This document shows, piece by piece, positions 3,801 through 41,600 of a stretch of 64,000 bases of DNA. Made by a program: the position numbers and the translations under genes. Source of the stretch: Apostichopus japonicus (taxonomy: Eukaryota; Echinodermata; Holothuroidea; Aspidochirotida; Stichopodidae); contig NC_092568.1 of NCBI RefSeq assembly GCF_037975245.1, forward strand, positions 40,896,631 through 40,960,630, in the 5' to 3' direction. A model generated the notes under the pieces. The model was not told where the DNA came from. It made no database searches and was given only the letters and a program-made list of their open reading frames with translations. Positions within the stretch are counted from its first letter, which is position 1, and each line of letters begins with the position of its first letter.

Positions 3801-6800
3801 TGTTGATAACAAGGTATCAAAGTGTGAAATCATGTTGAGGATAACTTTTAATTCAAAAATTTCCATTGATATGTCTTATTATATTAGTTGATTTATTTGT
3901 GATTGTCTCAATGTTATTTTCCATTTCATAATTTCCTCTATGATTTTTTTGGTTTGTTTGTTCTTTACATCTGGATTTTTAGACTCATCAGAAAAGAAAG
4001 AGCTTTCTCACGGTGGCAGTCTATACAATGGGAGGAAGCAAGTATTGTACTTTGCTGATGCTCTGTCAGAGGTTGCCTTTGTTGTCCCTAATTTACCAGA
4101 AGCAAAGACATCCAGTAGTGAAACTTGTGAGTGTACACCACCCCCCCCCCCCCCTGCTGGGAATATATAACTCTCACAAGCTTGATTTTGGGCTGCATAT
4201 TACTGCACATGGCTGATAACATTGTGTTTCTGCAATGGCAAATCCATGGGATTAAAAAAGTTGAGAAACTGATTAATATTTGGGAAGTTTATAATTGGGG
4301 GTGTCGGGATGGGGTGGGGGGGGGGTTAGAATTCTTGTAGAAGTTCAACCATGAGTGACCATTATTTAACTATCTAGCATGTTTGGTGTCATTACTGTTG
4401 ATTTTTATTTATCATCTGACGATGGACTTAAGTAGACATCTGGATCTCCACCTTTGTGAAGATATTTCTTCTCTTTATACACAGCCAAGAGAGATTCCTT
4501 CATATCTGAGGACAGCATAGATTCATCCACATCTTCTATCGGCCTGCCTCTTCCTCCTCTTGCCTCCAATAATAACAACAAAGATGACAGTCCTCGTAAG
4601 TCTGCCGGATCGGACACCAGGAAGACGTCGACCAAGGGGGGGCCGTTCACTTTTCCAGATATGAAAGTGATCGTCGTTTGGGTGGAAAACTTTGATGACT
4701 GCAAACATTTCCCTCTAGGTAAGTACATTTTAGTCTGCAGTTTGGAGAGAGACTTTGTCGGTGGTCTGTAACCAAATTCAGTGATGTTATCACATTAACA
4801 GAATACAATTTGGATGACATGTAGTTTCTCCTTGGTTTAATCCAATAATAACGCTATAGTTTTTAGTAGAGGTTGAAAGTAACTTGAGGTCAACTCAATT
4901 TCTGAAAGTTTTGCTGGCATGTTACTTAACTTAATATGTGAGTGAATTTAATTTCTTTTACAAACTAAATTTCTAACCAGTTTTCAATAAATGTCTTTCC
5001 TATGGAGAATATTCTCTTGTTATGATTTCCTTCCCAGGTCAAGTCAATTTCTGAAATTATTGTTGACATGTTAGCTCCAAAATAAGAGAATTAAAATAAA
5101 CTTAATATGTAAGGGAATCGCATTTCTATTACAAACTAAGTTTCTAACATGTTTTTAATAAATGTCCTTTCTATGGAGAATATACTCTTGTTATGATTTC
5201 CTTTGCAGGTGATATTATTCCAGAGACCAACACTGGTACGGAGGAGTTCCTTGCCGCCAGTCTGTCTTCTATGCCAAAACCAAGTGAAGCAGGAATCATG
5301 GTCATCTTCATTCATGCTTTGCGTAGCGGCCTGTATAGAGTTGCAATGAAAAGCAGGTAAATAGAATGAGAATTGTGTATAGTTGGACTGCATAGCAGAC
5401 ATGCTCTGCGTAGCGGGCTGTATAGAGTGGCACTGCAAATCAGGTACAGTAAATGGAATGAGAATTGGGTATAGTTGGACTGCACAGCAGAGATGCTTTG
5501 CGTAGCGGGCTGTATAGAGTTGCAATGCAAAGCAGGTAAATAGAATGAGAATTGTGTATAGTTGGACTGCATAGCAGACATGCTCTGCGTAGCGGGCTGT
5601 ATAGAGTGGCACTGCAAAGCAGGTACAGTAAATAGAATGAGAATTGGGTATAGTTGGACTGCACAGCAGAGATGCTTTGCATAGCGGGCTGTATAGATTT
5701 GCAATGCAAAGCAGGTAAATAGAATGAGAATTGTGTATAGTTGGACTGCATAGCTGACATGTTCTGTGTAGAGGGCTGTATAGAGTTGCAATACAAAGCA
5801 GGTAAATAGAATGAGAATTGTGTATAGTTGGACTGCATAGCAGACATGCTCTGCGTAGAGGGCTGTATAGAGTTGCAATACAAAGCAGGTAAATAGAATG
5901 AGAATTGTGTATAGTTGGACTGCATAGCAGACATGTTCTGTGTAGAGGGCTGTATAGAGTTGCAATACAAAGCAGGTAAATAGAATGAGAATTGTGTATA
6001 GTTGGACTGCATAGCAGACAGCAGGACAACAAACTGTATGTAGTTGTGATGCTATTAACAGGGGACTGCATACAGTTGTACTACATAGCAGAAAAACCAA
6101 AACAAACTGAGTGTGTAGTTACAAGTAATATTTGTAGTAACATCATGTACAATGTATGGCTAATGGATACAGTGGATTGAACAAGTACAAGGCATTGTTA
6201 ACATCTAGTTGTATGAAGCTGTAGTACAAAGCATGTAAACAGACACAGGACTGTATAGACATACAATGTACAGCAGGTATATAGAGACATGACTGTATAG
6301 AAAAACCATGTACAGCAGGTATATAGAGACATGACTGTATAGACAAACCATGTACAGCAGGTATATAGAGACATGACTGTATAGACATACAACGTACAGC
6401 AGGTGTATAGACACAGGACTGTATAGACATACAACGTACAGCAGGTGTATAGACACAGGACTGTATAGACATACAACGTACAGCAGGTATATAGAGACAT
6501 GACTGTATAGACAAACCATGTACAGCAGGTATATAGACACATGACTGTATAGACAAACCATGTACAGCAGGTATATAGACACATGACTGTATAGACAAAC
6601 CATGTACAGCAGGTATATAGAGACATGACTGTATAGACATACAACGTACAGCAGGTATAAAGACACAGCTGTACAACATGGCGAATAATCCTGACTGGTC
6701 TACCACTGGACAACCACAACTTAATGGGCAACACTATAAGGATAGGTTTTCACTGAATATTTACCATGTCTCCTCTCTTCTGCAGCTCAACTCTAGCTGT

Positions 6801-7589: not shown

Positions 7590-9150
7590 TGTAGATCTAA
7601 TCAGGTATACACACTTCCATCCAGGGTATGATAAACTGCAGATAGATCTAGTCAGGTGTACAGACTGCCATCCAGGGTATGATATACTGGAGATAGATCT
7701 AGTAAGATATATAGACTTCTATCCAGGGTATGATCAACTGGAATTAGATCTAGTCAGGTGTACAGACTTCTGTCTGGTATACAGACTTCTATCCAGGGTA
7801 TGATAAACTGCAGATAGATCTAGTCAGGTGTACAGACTTCCATCCAGGGTATGATAAACTGGAGATAGATCTAGTCAGGTGCACAGACTTCCATCCATGG
7901 TATGATAAACTGGAATTAGATCTAGTCAGGTATACAGACTTCCATCCAGGGTATGATAAACTGGAGATAGATCTAGTCAGGTGTAAAGACTTCCATCTAG
8001 GGTATGATAAACTGGAGATAGATCTAGTCAGGTGTACAGACTGCCATCCAGGGTATGATAAACTGGAGACAGATCTAGTCAGGTGCACAGACTTCCATCC
8101 AGGGTATGATAAACTGGAGATAGATCTAGTCAGGTGCACAGACTTCCATCCAGGGTATGATAAACTGGAGATAGATCTAGTCGGGTGTACAGACTGCCAT
8201 CCAGGGTATGATAAACTGGAGATAGATCTAGTCAGGTATACAGACTTCCATCCAGGGTATGATAAACTAGAGATAGATCTAGTCAGGTGCACAGACTTCC
8301 ATCCAGGGTATGATAAACTGGAGATAGATCTAGTCGGGTGTACAGACTGCCATCCAGGGTATGATAAACTGGAGATAGATCTAGTCAGGTATACAGACTT
8401 CCATCCAGGGTATGATAAACTGGAGGTAGATCTAGTCAGGTGCACAGATTTCCATCCAGGGTATGATAAACTGGAGATAGATCTAGTCGGGTGTACAGAC
8501 TGCCATCCAGGGTATGATATACTGGAGATAGATCTAGTCAGGTATATAGACTTCCATCCAGGGTATGATAAACTGGAGATAGATCTAGTCAGGTGTACAG
8601 ACTTCCATCCAGGGTATGATAAACTGGAGATAGATGTAGTCAGGTATACAGACTGCCATCCAGGGTATGATAAACTGGAGATAGATCTAGTCAGGTAACA
8701 GACTTTCATCCAGGGTTTGATAAACTGGAGATAGATCTAGTCAGGTATACAGACTGCCATCCAGGGTATGATATACTGGAGATAGATCTAGTCAGGTATA
8801 CAGACTTCCATCCAGGGTATGATAAACTGGAGATAGATCTAGTCAGGTGTACAGACTTCCATCCAGGGTATGATAAACTGGAGATAGATCTATTCAGGTA
8901 ACAGACTGCCATCAAGGGTATGATAAACTGGAGATAGATCTAGTCGGGTGTACAGACTTCCATCCAGGGTATGACATACTGCAGATAAATCTTGTCAGGT
9001 ATGCAGACTTCCAGTCAGGGTATGATAAACTGGAGATAGATCTAGTCAGGTGTACAGACTGCCATCCAGGGTATGATAAACTGGAGATAGATCTATTCGG
9101 GTATACAGATTTCCATCCAGGGTATGATAAACTGGAGATAAATCTAATCT
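7590..9150 (+). repeat. 51-bp minisatellite, about 30 copies, downstream of the RALGAPB stop
   Basis: The unit is CCATCCAGGGTATGATAAAC + TGGAGATAGATCTAGTCAGG + TGTACAGACTT, with a few variants (ATAC/GCAC, CTTCC/CTGCC). The array starts about 110 bp after the stop codon and probably lies in the 3' UTR, as no other gene intervenes before a poly(A) signal. The period is 17 codons, which keeps a frame open on the minus strand for hundreds of codons; that is not evidence of coding. Confidence 0.92.
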
Positions 9151-19700: not shown

Positions 19701-22700
19701 GATGTTCTTGAAGTAACTGCATATTACTGTAGCGACGTAGTATTGGGGTGTACGTCTGGAGCTAGTCCGATAAATGACTTTATTGAAAGTGGGAAGAAAA
19801 CACTTTGCATGAGAAGGATTTACACCTGATCCAATAAAGAAGAACAGCCTTCTAGGAATGTCAGGACCTCTAAATGTACATACAATTGTTTTATTCTGAT
19901 TGGCTTTATTGTCATCTTCATGTCAGCTTAGAAGAGTTTAATTGTAACAAAATTTAGAAGTTCTTCCACCTCAATGTGGGATTCCCTTCATGGTTGTTTG
20001 AATGAAAAAGTTGGTTGCCCACAAGATTAACATATAATGGTTATACAGTAAGTGGTTACAGTACATAGGGATGCCCACCAGGGTGGGCTAGCTCAAATGG
20101 TAGAACACAGGACTTGTATCCCTGCAGTCACTGGTGCAATCCCTGACCCCTAAATTTGTTTGCTGTTTACAAGATATCTAATCGTCTCAGAAATACTGCA
20201 AACTATCGTAGATGTAAACTCCAGAATTGTTTGTAAATATATTTGGGATCTATTGAAGCTTTTCTTAAAGAACATTGAAAACAACCGTTTGGATTTATCT
20301 TTCATTCGCAGTTGTGAGGAATGAGGGCTTGATGTCGCAGGATACCAGCGGATTTTTGCCCGTTCTCTTTCATCTTGAGTGCATACATATATGTCAATAT
20401 TACTATGAGTACACAGAGGCTCAAGAACACCTGCAAACAGCAAAGAAAATGGCAGGACTGGAGGTAAACCTAACAGGTGAGGATTATTACTCATAAAAAC
20501 AAAGTTTTGAAAGTTTCATTAATCCTTCTTGTTGATGTCTGTGGTTGCTTAGCTTGGCATTGGAATAATGTGGCCTTCTGTGTGTGGTGTAAGCAATGTT
20601 GTTCTGTTAGTACTTGTTTTATATGTTCCTGGTTTCACTGTTTTAGTCTTCCTGCATTCTTTAATTTATTCATTCAATCATTCGTTCATTCATTAGCTCT
20701 TTCTGGTTCATTAATTGATTCGATCATTGATTCGTTCATTCAATCATTTGTTCATTTGTTTGTTCATTCATTCATTCAGATGTGCTATTACTTATTCAGG
20801 GATGTGCCCCCGCTGGGTGGCACTGGAAGGCCCCGCCGAGCACTAAAAATTACCGCCCAGCACTGTCTTAAAAGTCATGAATCCAGCCCAGCACTACTTT
20901 CATCTAAAATCCCGACATTCCTAACAATATATTCAACATAAATTGAAAAAAAATTGAAAAAAAGTAAATTGTTAGCAAAACTAGTACTTGTGTATGTGCT
21001 TAAAAAGCTACACAAGTGCCAGCATTTGGCATCTGAGCACCTTCAAAAATCGAAAACTTTCTCAAAGGGGAGGGGGAACCCCTCCCCTTAGACCCCTCCC
21101 TCAGGACGGCGATCAGTATACCCGGCACTCAGGAAATCCTGGGCACATCCCTGCTTATTATTAATGTGCTTAATTACCAGGTGCTCTAGGCAAGAGGACA
21201 AGGTTCCAACAGGAGGACAAAGCTCAACTCTTCTTGAAAGTAGAAAAGACCGACTCTGATGTGAACAGAGGAATCAGTGACCAACAGGAAACTGTTTCTG
21301 GGTTACCAAAGGTTGGTAAATGTTTTGTAGTCATAGATTAAGAGAATCTGTTTCATGATCAGTTTCATGATATCAATTTGTCTACCAACAGCAGAGTCAC
21401 AGCCATCTCTGTTCTAGATAACAGCTAGAGGGCTTTGTTTTTCCGTAGAATGTACAAACTATTTACCCAAGGGGGCAACGATTCTTGTAGAGCAATTTTC
21501 AGTGTCATAGAGGTTTGAAATGTTGATTACTTAGATGATGCACAGTGATTTGAAATTTATCAAACTTCAAGAACAATTTTAAGGAAGTGTAAGGAAAACC
21601 ATGAAAGAGTAATTTTTTAAACATTTAATGTTTTTAATTTTCATGTGACAGGATCTCATGCTAGAGGATGATACAGTACTCAATAATGTGAAATTCAAAG
21701 ATGCTGGAATAGAGGAGATTCCCAGACTGTCAGGAGGAGAACAAGCTCTCATCATTTCCCTCTGGTGAGTAGACATATCCCTGTAGCGAGTAAACATTTC
21801 CCTCTAGCTAGTTAACATATCCCTGAGGCGAGTAAACATATCCCTCTAGCGAGTAAACATATCCCTGAGACGAGTAAACATATCCCGCTATCGAGTAAAC
21901 ATAACCCTCTAGCGAGTAATCATATCCCTCTGGTGAGTAGACATATCTCTCTAGCGAGGAAACCTATCCATGAGGCGAGCAAACATATCCCTCTAGCGAG
22001 TAAACATAACCCTCTAGCGAGTAAATATATCCCTCTGGAGAGTAGACATATCCTTGAGGCGAGTAAACAAATCCCTCTGGCGAGTAAACATATCCCTGAG
22101 ACGAGTAAACATTTCCCTCTAGCCAGTAAACAACCCTCTAGCAAGTAAACATAACCCTCTAACAAGTAAACATACCCCTCTGGTGAGTAGACATATCCCT
22201 CTAGCGAGTAAACATATCCCTCTGGTGAGTAAACATATCACCTAGCGAGTAAACATATCCCTCTGGCAAGTAAACATATCCCTCTAGCGTGTAAACATAA
22301 GTCTCTAGCGAGTAAACATATCCCTCGAGCGAGTCAACATATCCCTCTGGTGAGTAGACATATTCCTCTGGTGAGTAAACATATCCCTCTAGTGAGTAAA
22401 CATATCCCTCTAGCGAATAAGCTTATCCCTCTGGCAAGTAAACATTACTCTAGCGAGTTAAACATATCCCTCTAGCAAGTAGACGTATCCCTTAAGTGAG
22501 TTAGTATATCCCGCTGGTGAATAAACATATTCCACTAGGAAGTAAACATATCCCTCAAGCGAGTAAACATATCCCTCTAGCGAGTAAACATATCCCTCTA
22601 GCGAGTAAACATATCCCACCTTTGACTAGACGTATCCTTCTCATGAGAAGACATATCTTAATTTCATCTTTCAGCTTAGACCACAAAAGGAAATCGCCTA

Positions 22701-25700
22701 AAGATGATTTAATAAATGAAGAGCTGTTACCTTACGTAGTGGTAAGTAGAACGACACAAAGATGATCGGAATTGTATGCAATGGTTAATGGAACTACTGC
22801 CAAAGACTTACACTTTAAAGAAAATTCATTCTGGCTTACCTGAGCACGAAAACCATACATAGGAGAACTCTCAGTGAAACAGAGATATTTAGTGGGTGGT
22901 TTATAAAACACTCAACACAGAATTGTAATTCCATATGTAGTGCTGTGTAGAATACAACGGAACATTGTTATCCTGTCCTATGGGACAATCATGATGGTTT
23001 CTGTAATCTAAACTGCTTAGACAGATATGGGAGTTGAACAAGTAGAATCAAAACAGGCACAGATTGGCCTACTTGCTTAGAATCAGGGTGCTTCCCGGTT
23101 CAAGGGGCTAAAATCGTCACCAGGTTGAGACGCCAAGGTGCTGATTTCCTCTGGTTTGCAATTTAGCTATTTTTGTCAATGCTTGTTGGATCAATGACCT
23201 GGTAGCAATTTATGCCTAATCAGCCCCTGAACCCAAACAGTTACCATGCCAACATGATGTGATGGGTTTTGCTTTGTTGTAACCAGAATGCAGGAATTGA
23301 ATGGTCATTGCTAATAGTACTGTTATCTTACCACTAATGAAGAAAGTCTTGAAATGAGCAAAAAATAATAAGAGGGAAAAATTTGAAGAATTGATTCTGT
23401 GAAGGTACTCAGAGAGAATTTAATTTTCTCATCGCACATGAACCACGATGATGCCTTAAGTGTAGCTCTGAATCCTTTTCAATTGTTACACCAGTATAGG
23501 TTGTTGAAGAGTGGAATGGAAATCAAGTAATGCTAGATACATAATCTGTTTTATATCGTTGCAGAGCGTATTGCAACAGCCACAGTATTGGTCCGTTCAG
23601 ATTGGGGCCCTCGCTCTGAGGTGCAAGTTAGAGAGAAGCAAAAGACGTAAAATAGAGAGGTCTATGATGCAGATGCAGGTACGTTGAAAATCCACCGCAG
23701 GAGGGTAACCATGACATTACCATAGTAACTTAGACTTGAAAGTTTGTTTTGTAATTCTGGGTAAGCTGATAAAATGGGTCGACAGCTTTTACAGTCGGTC
23801 GCAAAGTGGCCAACAGAAAAACTTATATCTTTAAAGGATTGGTTTAGTTGTTTGACATGTCTATTTTGTATGAAAGAGCACAAAAAGAACAGTGCAGAAA
23901 CTACCATGATAGCATGCTCTCTTAAGGAGATATGACACTTTGAAGATAGCAAAATTTCTTTGAAAATGACTGGTGTAGAAAGACTAACTGTGAGGGTGTG
24001 ATGTCACATCCTTACTTCCTTAACATGTGTGAATATATTTCTTTAAAAATTATTTACATTTTTTAACACATTTGAAAATAATATAATCAAAATTTTTCAG
24101 ATGTTTGATCTCAAATACTTCCTTTGACAAATATGAGATCTCCTGACATATCTTTTGGTTGAAAGTCATGAAATCTCACAAAATATTTAGAAAAAAAAAC
24201 AAAGACTTTTCAGGAATGTGAGGATGTGACATCACAGCTAGTCAGATTTCAGCAGTTTCCACACAATCTGATAAAACTTTACACTTGAATATCTCTTTAA
24301 CCAAAAAAGATATTTGAACAGTTTTTTCACCATTGTGTTTCTTTTATTGTCCTCTATCATATAACATAAACATGTATGACAACTGAACCAATCCTTTAAA
24401 CAATGTTTCTGATGGAATCTGACAGTATGCATCCTCCAAGCTGCAAAGTTATTTGTCAAACAAATTGTGATCGATGTGTGTGTTTACAAACTATCGTTCA
24501 ATGCGTAATCAAAACGGTCAAGGCACAGTTATATAGATAATCACCAGGGATTTAATAGTGCTGCATATCAGGTCCAGAAATATCTAGATAGTGGCCAGGG
24601 AAATTACAACATGGGGTTGCCGGGGAAAATGTCTGGGAAGTAGGGCATTAAAGTGTTGGAGTAATATTTTGGTGCCAGAAAACTTCATTTTCTGAAATGA
24701 TATTCAATGCTAGGTTAACTAAGTTTTGGCGATTGTTATCACAAGACCACTATCTTAATCAGTGATAATAACACTGCTGCCTGATTGATCAATGTCATGT
24801 GAATTGTTGGCTTTCCTGAAAACACACTTAAAACTGTATGCATATCTTCTTGCTTTGATAGTAACTACTTTAGTCATGTCACTCTCCACTTTTTCACAAT
24901 ATTTCATATTTCTGTTTTGTTATCATAGACAGTTGTTGATAGCTTTGATGATGGAGTATGTCCAGTTTATCACAGACTGCAGTATATTTATGCTGTAAAC
25001 CTTCCACCAAAATGGGACATGGAGGCAAGTATCCACTTGAAATCATTGCCCTTGGTAATGCAGTGTTGGTAACTAGCTTAGTCACTTAGCGACAGTGACA
25101 GCTTCAGACCAGAGTTCCAGGTATCAATTATGCTAGACATGACTAGTAGTAAATAGGCTGACAGTAAAGTAGACTGGTCCTAAGCATGTCAACTGTGGAA
25201 TTACTGCAGACCAGAGTTCCATGTATCAATTATGCTAGGCATGGCTTGTAGTAATTAGACTGACACTAAAGTAGACTTGTCCTAAGCATGGCTGCTGTGA
25301 TGTTGCTGTGGACCAGAGTTCCATGTATTAATTATGCTAGGCATGACTAATAGTAAATAGGCTGACAGTAAAGTAGACTGGTCCTAAGCATGTCAACTGT
25401 GGAATTGCTGTAGACCAGAGTTCCATGTATCAATTATGCTAGGCATGGCTAGTAGTAATTAGGCTGACAGTAAAGTAGACTGGTCCTAAGCATGTCTACT
25501 GTGGAATTACTGTAGACCAGAGTTCCATGTATCAATTATGCTAGGCATGGCTAGTAGTAAATAGGCTGACAGTAAAGTAGACTGGTCCTAAGCATGTCAA
25601 CTGTGGAATTGCTGTAGACCAGAGTTCCATGTATTGCATACATACCCATTGGCATTAAAGAGGATAGCTTTATGCAAGCCAGCTTCCATGTTGCTAAAAA

Positions 25701-28700: not shown

Positions 28701-31700
28701 CATAGTTATTACTACTTCCTTTACAACACAGAATTTTCAAGCCTGGAACAATCTTGCCAATGCATACACCAGGCTTAATCAAAAGTGAGTACTTTCTTTC
28801 GAATTCTGCAGACTGATATATGTGTGTTATCATTTGCGGATGAAATTTATTAACCTCTTAGGTATTTTCTCGTTGTACAACTGCTGGAAAAAGCTCTGCT
28901 CAGTTTGGAAGAGCTCATGACTTAATGTCATATCTGGGGGGGGGGGGGGCTGCCATTTTTATATCTGTAGTGCTGAAGTGTCATCATATATCTGGTATAC
29001 ATTATGTTATAATTTGGCATGTTATTATCACATGTTGACAGAAGTTAGTTTGCAAAGCTTTCATTTATACAAATTCAGAATAGTTGTTGTTATTTGTAGT
29101 TAGGCTGGATCCCGGGATCTACACTACAATACCAGCGTGTGATGTCACAGTGTCACTAGCAGGTGAAACCATACCCCTTAGTTTTGCTGGTAAAAGTTCA
29201 AACCATGTTGGTTCTGCAGTGATGCCAGAATCAGTTAATGAGGTTATCTTTCTCCTTGGATGTAATATTTTTGGTTTTTGAGAGATGAACTGTTTCTTAT
29301 TTCCTGCAGGTATAAAGCTTTCCTGTCTTTCAAAGAAGCCATAAAGTGTAACTATGAAAACTGGAAAGTCTGGGAAAACTATCTTGTGGTAAGAGATGTG
29401 ATTAGTGAGCAAGATCTGATCAGCTCATGGATTAAAAACATAATAATTCATGATTTCTGATGTGTTTTGTTGTTGTGATTACTTTGTGCTCTGTCAATAT
29501 TTGATAAAGCACTAAGTATGCCAGAATTTGTATTAATAGTGTCTGAAGTACTTTAGTTATATATCTTAAACTGATGATTGTTTAACATCAGTCTTTTCAA
29601 ACCTGACATGATGGACTTGTGATATTATGCAGAGATGTCGATAGTGATGATATTCGTCGTGTAATTTCACCATACAAAGGGGTACTTTGCAATTAAATTA
29701 ATTAGAAGCAACAGATGATATATCATTAGAGATTGTTCAATGGCTGTTTCATATATTAATCTTTCTTATTTATCATAAATTCTCACTTACCTCAAACGGC
29801 AAACCACACAGAAGAGGAGATGAGAAATTGTTTAATAAACATATTTACAAATCATCACTTTCTCTCCTGTCCATTTACATTTGTCTATGCATGTACCAAT
29901 CATGTCTGTTGTGCTCTTATAAAGGGGATTGTAAACAGAGCTATCAGGCATTCTAACCCAGTTACCATCACCTAAAAGGACCCCACCCTGGGGAGAAACA
30001 ACAAACAGACAGCAAACTGTTTATCTATGGCAAGGGCTCGACATGTCGATCCTGGCAGGATCCTGGCAGGATCTTCTTCTACGACAAACAGGAGAGTAAG
30101 AACGGTTAACAAACCTGCTTATCTGCTGCAACGGCCTGACATGTTGATCCTAGCAGGATCTTCTTCTGAGGCAAACAGGAGAGAAAAAGCTGTTAACAAA
30201 CCTGCTTATCTGCTGCAACGGCCTGACATGTTGATCCTAGCAGGATCTTCTTCTGAGGCAAACAGGAGAGAAAAAGCTGTTAACAAAACTGCTTATCTGC
30301 TGCAACGGCCTGACATGTTGATTCTAGCAGGATCTTCTTCTGAGGCAAACAGGAGAGAAAAAGCTGTTAACAAACCTGCTTATCTGCTGCAATGGCCTGA
30401 CATGTTGATCCTAGCAGGATCTTCTTCTGAGGCAAACAGGAGAGAAAAAGCTGTTAACAAAACTGCTTATCTGCTGCAACGGCCTGACATGTTGATTCTA
30501 GCAGGATCTTCTTCTGAGGCAAACAGGAGAGAAAAAGCTGTTAACAAAACTGCTTATCTGCTGCAATGGCCTGACATGTTGATTCTAGCAGGATCTTCTT
30601 CTGAGGCAAACAGGAGAGAAAAAGCTGTTAACAAAACTGCTTATCTGCTGCAACGGCCTGACATTTTGATTCTAGCAGGATCTTCTTCTGAGGCAAACAG
30701 GAGAGAAAAAGCTGTTAACAAAACTGCTTATCTGCTGCAACGGCCTGACATGTTGATTCTAGCAGGATCTTCTTCTGAGGCAAACAGGAGAGAAAAAGCT
30801 GTTAACAAAACTGCTTATCTGCTGCAACGGCCTGACATGTTGATTCTAGCAGGATCTTCTTCTGAGGCAAACAGGAGAGAAAAAGCTGTTAACAAAACTG
30901 CTTATCTGCTGCAACGGCCTGACATGTTGATTCTAGCAGGATCTTCTTCTGAGGCAAACAGGAGAGAAAAAGCTGTTAACAAACCTGCTTATCTGCTGTA
31001 AGCGCCTGACATGTTGATCCTAGCAGGATCTTCTTCTAGCAGGATCTTCTACTAAGGCAAACAGGAGAAAAAGCTGTTAACAAAACAGCTTATCTATTGC
31101 AAAAAGCCTGTGTAGATCAAGGAGTAGCCATAACATGACCTGACATTTCAATCCTATAACTTACACAAAATGTAAGAAAAACAATTAATCAGTATCTGTT
31201 CTTGTTTTAGATTTCTAAGTCATCAGTTGTTGTATTATTTATTTTATTTTGTCACTGCTAGGTCAGTGTTGATGTTGGCCAATTCAGTGAAGCCATTAGA
31301 GCTTACCAGAGGCTTCTGGAACTGAAGGAGAAATTTGTTGATGAGGAGGTCTTAAGAGTCCTGGCCAAAATAGTCACAGACAATATTCATGACCATGATG
31401 GAAAACCAGGTAGGTTTTTACTATTGTCAGCACTAATCTGTTTCAAAGATTTGAAATTCTGTTTTTAGATATATCAAATAAGTTGATAATTTTTTAAATA
31501 CCAAAGGAAGTGGTTATTAATACTATGTTGGAAGAAAGGAAAGGATTTCCATTTCTCTTTAGGATGGAAATTGGTTTAGAAAAGCTATTCCACTCTTATA
31601 TAACATGTTAAGGCTTTGGCTCTTGACTGTATTTTAGGCTGTGTGACCATTAATATGCATCAGGGTGACCAGACCAGGCTAATCATTGTTGGTAATGTCA

Positions 31701-38624: not shown

Positions 38625-41600
38625 ATGGAAGCATCCGATGGTCCTGCAATTGTGATAGATACCGAACCACAAGATTTTGAAGAGAACAGTGGCGATGCTG
38701 TTGTCGGGGAAAATGGGGATTCAGAAATCCCACCTGAGGCACTGGCGGCAGTTGACGAACTTAAAGAAGAAATGGAAAACATCGTTCTTGAAACACCTAA
38801 AATTGACTTGTGAGTGTATATCGTTTGATTGTAGGATAATACCAATCAGGCTTAGCCTAGGCCTAACGGCTGGTGTTGACACTTAATGTTAATTGTTGTG
38901 TTAGAGTTAGCCTAGATCGTAGATGTAAGCCCTAGCCTACTGACCTGCTACAGTGCTAGCGTTCTTACGTTAGCTTAACGCTTTTATGCTACTTCATATT
39001 TCTGGTACTCAATAGTAGCATGGTGGGCTCATAATTGACGCACTGAAGGATTTGATCAACGATGTTGATCAAGGAAAAATCCAAATCACTCAACTGTATG
39101 TGTTTTTAATATGTGTGATTCCTCAGGAATGTAATGTTCTCAAATTATTTATTGCTCTGTGCATATGCAAGGTACAATTGAGCAGAACTTGACCACAAAA
39201 TATCTGCTGTGTCAAGTTGTTTCGTATGCTGTGGCTATTCTTACGACCAGGAGTAACAATTATTTATACGAAGTGATTATTCGCAGGGCAGCCCGGCGAA
39301 TAACGTACACAGACACCTTATTCGCAGGGCTGTGACGATTTTGAAAATAGGTTTATTATTAGGTTTGGCTATTGATACCAGTCAGTTTAGGGGCCTTGAA
39401 AAAGCCAACCTTTAGGGCCCAAATAGTCTTAGCTACTTCATAAGCTAATTTTTGGAACCCCAGCAATTCAATTTTAATAGCTTATTTTAAGGGAGCTTAT
39501 CTTGGGATTCCCCAAAAGCCGATATTGCCTGAAATCCAATATGGTCAAGGGTGTGACACCCCCTCCCCCCCCCCCCCTCCGAATCTTTTACATGCAAATG
39601 AGCAGTCACTCTGCAAAAACAAAGGTGAAATGAGGGATGAAACTTTTTATGTTGGCGGTACTAATGCTAGACTGGTTCAATCTTAAGGCCCTAGGCTCCC
39701 AAAACCAACCCTAACAGCATTAAGATAGGAATCCCAAAGGCCAATCAATTCCTCAAAATATAGAGGCTCCCAATTAAGACTCTCAAAAAGATAGCTGGTG
39801 CCCAAAAGCAAACTCGAATAGCCCCAAAAGTTACTGAGCCTGTTAACCCAGTCTAAGGCTGCCCTGTGAATAAGGTGTATGTGTCTGGCTATTCGCAGGG
39901 CAGCCCTGCAAATAAGATGCTTGTGTCTGGCTATTCACAGGGCTGCCCTGCAAATAAGGTGTATGTGTCTGGCTATTCACAGGGCTGCCCTGTGAATAAG
40001 ATACTTGTGTCCGGCTATTCACAGGGCTGCCCTGTGAATAAGGTGTATGTGTCTGGCTATTTGCAGGGCTGCCCTGCGAATAAGCCCCACCTTATTTATA
40101 AACTATTCTTACGACATCGGCGAATTTCCGGTTACGCATGCGCAGTAAAGTAAAGCAACTGCGCATGCAATAGGGGTAACCCTAACTGGAATTTATTGTT
40201 ACTCCTGGTTGTAAAAATAGCCACCTTAAAGCAACTGCACATGCGTAACCCGAAATTATTGTTACTTCTGGTCGTAAAAATAGCCACTTTGTTCTTTCAT
40301 ACCCCTAAATTGACACATTCCTGGATTAGCTAACTGTAACTTTTGTGTAAGTTTATATCAATTGACTCTGAATGCTGTTTGCTCTGAGCCCCTAAGCTCA
40401 GACAAGTCAGGTCCCAGAGAGTAGTGGTATCATGCTTTGGTAATATTGGGTTTTTTTAGGGAGTAAGATTTCCAAATCTCAAAAATATGTGCAAAACTGG
40501 GGGGAGGAGTGTTAAATGCTTAAAAAAAACACAAATTGATCAGCACATATCTGAAATGGATTCAAACTATATAAAAAAGTTGCCTGCTGTATCGTTGCCA
40601 GTAATATTTGAAGGTGCGTCAATTACGAAAGTGCGTCAATTATGAAGCCTTATACTAGTAGGCCTGCTCACAGCCAACATTTAACAGTAAACTCATCACA
40701 CTTGATAACAGAAACTTATGGAACTGAGTTAGCCTAGTAAATAGCATCCAAAGAAACTTTTTTCCTGCAAAAAAATTGTATATATTTCATATTAACTGCC
40801 AATTCTCACACTGTCACAGTCTTCACTGTGACCCTCTCCAAATCTCTTCTCTCTTTTTTTTAATTTCAACTGGTGTAATAAAGTAATGCAGATTTGCATG
40901 GAGTTGTAGAAAACTGCCAAGGGATGTAATATTACTGAACACAACAATTAATGTTCATTAAAAGTGTTAGACAATGTGACTAGAAGTAGGACTAAAGTTA
41001 GGCTTACTTGTACAATAGCAAATGACATGGAATAGTCAAATTTTATTTTTGAACCATTCCCAACTCAAGAAAGGGTGTACTTGTCATCACTGAATATTTT
41101 CTGACATGCATGGCATAAATAGTTCTAACACACATAAAGGAAGAAAAAATCTCACTGTTGCTACCTCTTATACTTATAGATGTGAAAGCATTTGGGCTTA
41201 TGACATAGACCTACAGTAGGCTGCAAAATGTTACATCCAATTATTTATGTTCATGTCTGAATATAGCTTTTTGTTTCTAAATGCAGCATACCCACTCAAC
41301 TCACCGAAGAGTTTCCACTTACATACAAAGATAATGACAACAAAGAAAGACTCGTTTTGGCCTATGCTGAAAACTTCCGACTGCAGTATGTCCACTTGTA
41401 CAGAGATAGGAAACCATTGTTCTTAAACCCTGTTAATGAATGTGGAACTGAGAAGTTTGTGTGCACCACTATCAGGCCCACACTCCTACCTTTCCATGAG
41501 CTGTACAACTTTGATGGATGTGCTGAACTTGTTGCAGACTACATCACCTTTGATGGACTAGACCCTCCCATAGAATTGGTGAGGCAATATGACATTAAAA

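Follow-up and report, generated by a model that had tools for sequence, protein, structure and literature searches.

A 21-bp minisatellite across the 5' splice site of TTC27 exon 7 in the sea cucumber Apostichopus japonicus, and similar donor-anchored arrays in other genes

How does an intron come to consist almost wholly of tandem copies of a unit that includes the donor of the exon before it, and what becomes of the extra donors? This question is raised by a 64,000-nucleotide stretch of the A. japonicus genome (C8:40896631-40960630; genome of 671.6 Mb in 35 contigs), called here the window and analyzed as a whole; positions without a contig name refer to it. We identified the gene concerned as TTC27 by tblastn with a human TTC27 sequence as query, which gave 16 colinear plus-strand matches (E < 1) over 15-36 kb. 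Joining position 21764 to 22675 keeps the reading frame open (...IISLCLDHKRKSPKDD...), and reading exon 7, which ends in phase 2, past its donor gives ...IISLW*, i.e., TGG TGA. Judging from this frame, splicing from a donor further downstream would immediately bring in a stop codon in frame, as an earlier note on the same DNA had stated. Elsewhere in TTC27, exon 10 has an apparent GC donor at window position 25025 (GACATGGAG followed by GCAAGTATC), GC being also what most of the intron 7 array copies carry, and another intron of the gene holds an 87-bp, 11-copy array with 97% matches (window 30059-31037), in which one frame is open for 341 codons and the unit length is a multiple of three.

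Tandem Repeats Finder (TRF) finds at exon 7 and intron 7 an array with a period of 21 (79% matches, score 1017) that crosses the exon-intron boundary between 21764 and 21765 (Table 1). It starts 12 bases inside exon 7, and the exon's own 5' splice site sits in the first copy, which confirms the earlier claim that the repeat is built on this donor. In a unit-by-unit alignment, the first unit consists of CATTTCCCTCTG, the last 12 exon bases, and GTGAGTAGA on the donor side; the rows stay in register up to 22609 with a few small indels and are degenerate from 22610, fading to 22672 and reaching the acceptor at 22674. Intron 7 is almost wholly array, spanned from the donor to about 60 bp short of the acceptor. 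The string CTCTGGTGAGT occurs six times exactly in the window, once at the exon's own donor (start 21760) and five times downstream, with GT at 21765, 21933, 22183, 22225, 22350 and 22371, just as had been noted before; CTCTAGCGAGT occurs nine times in the window. The notion that the unit equals exon end plus donor holds for the first copy but not for most rows: the majority unit is CATATCCCTCTAGCGAGTAAA, and at the donor position, counted back a constant distance from where each unit ends, 25 of 44 rows have GC and nine have GT, eight of them downstream, so that the splice signal is present in many, not all, units.

Table 1. Coordinates of the features discussed (window positions unless a contig is named).
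Feature	Position	Strand	Basis
RALGAPB exon, last 44 bases (from 5313) in repeat unit	5209..5356	+	PDB 9qwp_B alignment
RALGAPB exon-seeded array, 87-bp unit, 8 copies	5313..6020	+	TRF
Second RALGAPB array, same intron, 42-bp unit	6230..6667	+	TRF
TTC27 exon 7, phase 2 end, ...GEQALIISL + TG	21652..21764	+	tblastn to human TTC27, splice sites, frame check
Minisatellite of 41.4 copies of a 21-bp unit, the first holding the final 12 exon bases and the donor	21753..22617	+	TRF, unit alignment
Exon 7 own 5' splice site GTGAGT	21765..21770	+	sequence, frame
Exact downstream copy of CTCTGGTGAGT; others start 22178, 22220, 22345, 22366	21928..21938	+	string search
Degenerate terminal units reaching acceptor region	22610..22672	+	unit alignment
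TTC27 intron 7, 910 bp, nearly all array	21765..22674	+	sequence, unit alignment, frame check
TTC27 exon 8	22675..22741	+	splice sites, frame check
Clusters of 42-bp GCAGGGCTGCCCTGCGAATA unit	window 39857-40084; C2:13373249, C2:13508778, C2:14313108, C8:36240191, C9:21281361, C13:2184409		

The units are divergent (mean pairwise identity 0.78), and when higher-order structure was sought by lag within the array, no lag was prominent. A 31-mer of the unit has two exact matches across the 671.6-Mb genome, both within the TTC27 array; considering that this 31-mer has no exact copy elsewhere, the array probably grew in place. We rejected an introner-like dispersed element on the same exact search, in which the 31-mer was absent genome-wide from the introns of other genes, a search that diverged copies would escape.

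The window holds an independent case in RALGAPB, as the earlier note had proposed. Here, the array begins inside an exon that ends at 5356, and the last 44 exonic bases belong to the 87-bp unit. Together with the one after it, this exon aligns to RalGAP beta (PDB chain 9qwp_B, E 2e-18), and the exonic half of the unit is conserved with respect to VIFIHPLNTGLFRIKIQG / HPLNTGLFRIKIQG of that chain. Because the repeated half is long-established coding sequence, the copying went from the exon into the intron. Reading past this donor gives AGG TAA, again a stop, and about 120 bp of non-array sequence lie ahead of the acceptor. By eye, the second array of the same intron contains the core of the 87-bp unit (AGCAGGTATATAGA...) and, on that judgement, is possibly a diverged derivative of the first. 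Also seen in the window were a 51-bp array of about 30 copies (7592-9146), in what is presumably the 3' region of RALGAPB, directly behind its stop codon, and exons of DRC7, a gene that stands outside every count given here.

The same architecture recurs in other genes of this genome, with more independent cases in CCT8 (two introns), a myosin gene, YJU2, SPTLC1, a glycosyltransferase gene and a TIL-domain gene. A scan for three AGGTRAGT words at minisatellite spacing gave 616 matches, of which 100 were listed; among the matches listed there are 11 donor-motif loci (spread over C1, C2 and the first part of C3), each of which was examined at its first copy, and four of these 11 begin at the own donor of a homology-matched exon. 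The YJU2 exon is supported by Pfam (2.8e-12) and by PDB chains of YJU2 (E 2e-12 and 1.4e-11), and its ...NPMK end, the exonic half of the array, is conserved coding sequence. The glycosyltransferase-21 exon has a Pfam match of 9.3e-11; that of the TIL-domain exon (1e-4) falls slightly below the Pfam cut-off; and serine palmitoyltransferase 1 (SPTLC1), with a best PDB E of 1.1e-5, has about four exonic bases in its unit. Three further loci (L005, L012 and L014) may start at an exon's own donor; none of the three is counted as exon-anchored, L005 and L012 having no Pfam match. At the remaining four (L006, L008, L009 and L013), the array start is not at an exon's own donor; L008 carries the same unit in two separate arrays, and the upstream array starts about 100 bp past the donor of a TIL exon. 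In CCT8, two introns carry junction arrays with units of 121 and 46 bp; the exons align to TCP1 theta chains (E 9.5e-55) through both repeated exon ends, whose exonic halves, DDVERAVDDGVNTFKSLTK and the GFDIE end, are conserved relative to those chains. The myosin exon with a junction array has a Myosin_head match of 1.1e-36. Long exonic halves (those of RALGAPB, CCT8 and YJU2) are conserved coding sequence, which shows that the exon seeded the array.

We found no enrichment of donor motifs in arrays by number of matches, as the AGGTRAGT pattern had 303+313 matches and the same pattern written backward 426+238, counts to which a few long arrays contribute most; since TGAATGGA fits microsatellites as well, the backward pattern is a poor control. 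For C1 and C2, whose listings are complete, we counted by eye 10 donor loci versus 8 control clusters, the latter being 3 microsatellite-like and 5 minisatellite-like, with one of these five common to the donor list. Three words of the perfect consensus CAGGTAAGT gave 5 matches in 4 arrays over the whole genome, versus 28 backward, and three words of the acceptor motif TTTGCAGR gave 137 versus 739 backward. The acceptor-motif places listed amount to 15 distinct arrays, with one dispersed family and one duplicated pair each counted once, and one of each was fetched; none of these 15 ends, by eye, at a recognizable exon, and the peptides from seven of them have no Pfam matches. The donor-motif and acceptor-motif samples are unmatched, and anchoring was partly judged by eye. 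As side observations, a 42-bp unit with GCAGGGCTGCCCTGCGAATA is dispersed genome-wide as short tandem clusters (Table 1), apparently as part of a mobile or satellite-like element, and several COX1-like pieces occur on a second contig (C29:14745-31219), possibly mitochondrial copies or a second mitochondrial assembly. The mitochondrial contig itself, C35, fits COX1 when AAA is read as Asn, AGA as Ser, ATA as Ile and TGA as Trp, and its genes run cox1, nad4L, cox2, atp6, cox3, nad3, nad4, nad5, nad6 (reverse), cob; both the code and this arrangement are of echinoderm type.

The earlier note had made an excess of arrays at exon ends the test of its reading. We examined this in small form, on 146 exons picked by protein family (46 CCT, 40 myosin, 60 kinesin), in which a first pass of 86 exons is contained. 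The CCT set comprises 46 of 57 matches, namely every match in eight multi-exon genes (omitting seven matches of a C17 gene, three single-frame matches on C3 and one long match on C8), the myosin set the first 40 of 70 myosin-head matches, and the kinesin set the first 60 of 126. Donors and acceptors, 144 each from these 146 exons, were called by a simple score without individual check, and a junction was scored when the 20-mer across it recurred within 380 bp into the intron. RALGAPB was kept out of the donor rate, since the earlier note had named it. Recurrence was found at 5 of 144 donors, three of them multi-copy (the myosin exon L028, 7 times, and the two CCT8 introns, 3 and 8 times) and two single (L104 and L049), which are probably due to chance. 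None of the 144 acceptors of the same sample showed recurrence, and the difference at the junction itself (3 v 0 of 144) is not significant (Fisher p 0.25). Among the hand-placed sites of TTC27, the junction recurs at two of 18 donors, 21765 and 22742 (the latter probably by chance), and at 0 of 17 acceptors.

In a profile by offset (look-ahead of 200 bp, at least two recurrences), the donor itself scored 2 of 144, and points lying 60, 80, 120 and 160 bp inside the intron scored 7, 8, 9 and 7 of 144; on the acceptor side the figures were 0 of 144 at the junction and, for the equivalent offsets, 0, 1, 2 and 2 of 144. Arrays are thus not enriched at the donor, where the rate of 3 of 144 (2 of 144 with the shorter look-ahead) compares with 7-9 of 144 at 60-160 bp into the intron, and in this small form the test set by the earlier note speaks against donor targeting. 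The two intron ends differ from each other, with 7 versus 0 at 60 bp (p 0.015), 8 versus 1 at 80 bp (p 0.036) and 9 versus 2 at 120 bp (p 0.06), in counts that are interdependent through neighbouring exons, overlapping loci, single arrays met at several offsets and the testing of several offsets, and in a profile in which short introns reach the next exon. Constraint on the branch point and the pyrimidine tract explains part of the deficit on the acceptor side. The acceptor-motif arrays, none of them ending at a recognizable exon, agree with this asymmetry. In the CCT, myosin and kinesin introns (L015-L066, L082-L141), the 160 bp at the 5' end also seem richer in minisatellites than the 160 bp at the 3' end. 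The existence of the arrays is certain, but arrays also form a substantial background: of 981 non-exon positions taken at random from the CCT genes, 73 have a recurrence in the 460 bp that follow, and of 1044 random intronic 20-mers of TTC27 (intron 7 excluded), 284 have one close by on either side. Given that donors have no excess over the neighbouring intron, donor targeting is not needed, and random tandem duplication in a minisatellite-rich genome, with tolerance at donors and probable loss at acceptors, explains the pattern.

The extra donors are not purged. For this comparison we used nine other arrays, i.e., the eight with a homology-supported exon plus L012, in which all but two of the 114 downstream copies (112) retain GT. 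Measured as deviation from each array's own majority, 3 of 237 cells deviate in GT columns versus 302 of 5405 in other columns (p 0.0017), a test in which copies are not independent and five of the nine arrays had been selected by the donor motif itself. In the four arrays found otherwise (RALGAPB, two of CCT8, and myosin), the figures are 0 of 70 versus 123 of 2430 (p 0.048), with the same dependence among copies. TTC27 shows the reverse trend, around its GC majority (14 of 80 versus 88 of 755 deviating cells).

We consider it likely that the TTC27 array is a mirage of the kind described in amphioxus, in which a boundary segment was duplicated in tandem and expanded into the intron as a neutral change, tolerated at donors and purged at acceptors. 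We infer that a short segment across the exon 7 / intron 7 boundary was tandemly duplicated, and that slippage or unequal exchange would have let the array grow into intron 7. The exon would have stayed intact, its proximal donor presumably being the one used and the downstream copies being spliced out with the intron, so the array is most likely selectively neutral. Duplications straddling a donor would be tolerated since the proximal donor still defines the exon. A duplication straddling an acceptor would offer a new first AG after the branch point, bring the repeat into the mRNA and probably be purged. TTC27 shares just 12 exonic bases with its array, and the direction from exon to intron is therefore carried by the other genes. 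That same short stretch, together with the abundance of arrays here (the 284 of 1044 recurring TTC27 20-mers), is what would speak for an unrelated intronic minisatellite whose unit resembles the exon end by chance; yet the register is unbroken through exon end and donor, and the longer exonic units of RALGAPB, CCT8 and YJU2 show the same architecture in conserved coding sequence; we regard coincidence as very improbable.

The GT retention in the nine arrays counts against plain neutral decay of decoys. It would suit a reading in which 5' splice sites and the bases right behind them form a hot spot of tandem duplication (e.g., through co-transcriptional R-loops or U1-bound nascent RNA) and the resulting multi-donor introns actively retain and sometimes use their extra donors, the GC-dominated TTC27 array being a decayed case; we think this unlikely. 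The same GTs, in 8 downstream TTC27 rows and 112 of 114 copies elsewhere, and the TGG TGA directly after exon 7 would fit regulated alternative or poison donors, whose use would meet the immediate stop and lower TTC27 by nonsense-mediated decay. However, most TTC27 rows lack GT (25 of 44 have GC), and most introns read past their donor reach a stop soon anyway, and we regard such regulation as very improbable. In the Rogers model of intron gain (as cited in PMC3087553), an exonic segment that contains a proto-splice site is duplicated in tandem, and the whole of intron 7 could have been created in this way: its repeats begin at the donor and stop only about 60 bp before the acceptor, and the authors of the amphioxus globin work propose, in its available text, such an origin for mirages (PMC3087553). 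Against this, the acceptor row at 22652 shows 12 differences when set against the 21-bp unit and is not a recognizable copy, and the RALGAPB intron keeps its stretch of about 120 bp of non-array sequence ahead of the acceptor; we therefore hold the birth of the intron in this way to be quite improbable. The tolerated, neutral expansion of a boundary segment remains our preferred account of the TTC27 array.

These observations extend exon-boundary minisatellites from amphioxus to an echinoderm, and they give a rough rate for them in a homology-chosen sample (3 of 144 donors and 0 of 144 acceptors). Our literature search, which took in few subscription journals, found no mirages in an echinoderm. 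Introns with many donors offer natural experiments on the choice that the spliceosome makes between near-identical donors, and they also probe why duplications of donors are tolerated and those of acceptors seemingly not. In addition, junction-spanning arrays can mislead gene predictors.

Intron gain by tandem duplication, of which potato RdRp is reportedly a case, likewise involves a tandem copy of a segment with a splice signal; it differs in that the TTC27 acceptor is not a recognizable repeat copy. Human genes of segmental duplications with variable internal tandem repeats also have minisatellites at exon-intron boundaries, but there, in the available text of the report, the repeats alter exons and make novel or alternative introns in recent paralogues, whereas the exon ends look conserved and unaltered here (PMC2812944). 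The closest likeness is to the amphioxus mirages, known from the globins BflGb6 and BflGb9, Adh3, TnC and PGBD5, among which those of Adh3, TnC and the globins are reported, in the available text of these sources, not to disturb splicing (PMC3087553, PMC3902484). The TTC27 array has the anatomical features of mirages: its 21-bp unit falls within their published range of 10 to 160 bp, tandem units lie over an exon-intron boundary, splice signals are present in many copies, and the exon is apparently unaffected. As far as the available text of the amphioxus reports goes, it differs in its copy number, about 41 versus 6 or fewer in the globin mirages (PMC3087553), and in that the cases of this cephalochordate include acceptors, whereas those in our echinoderm sample are at donors only.
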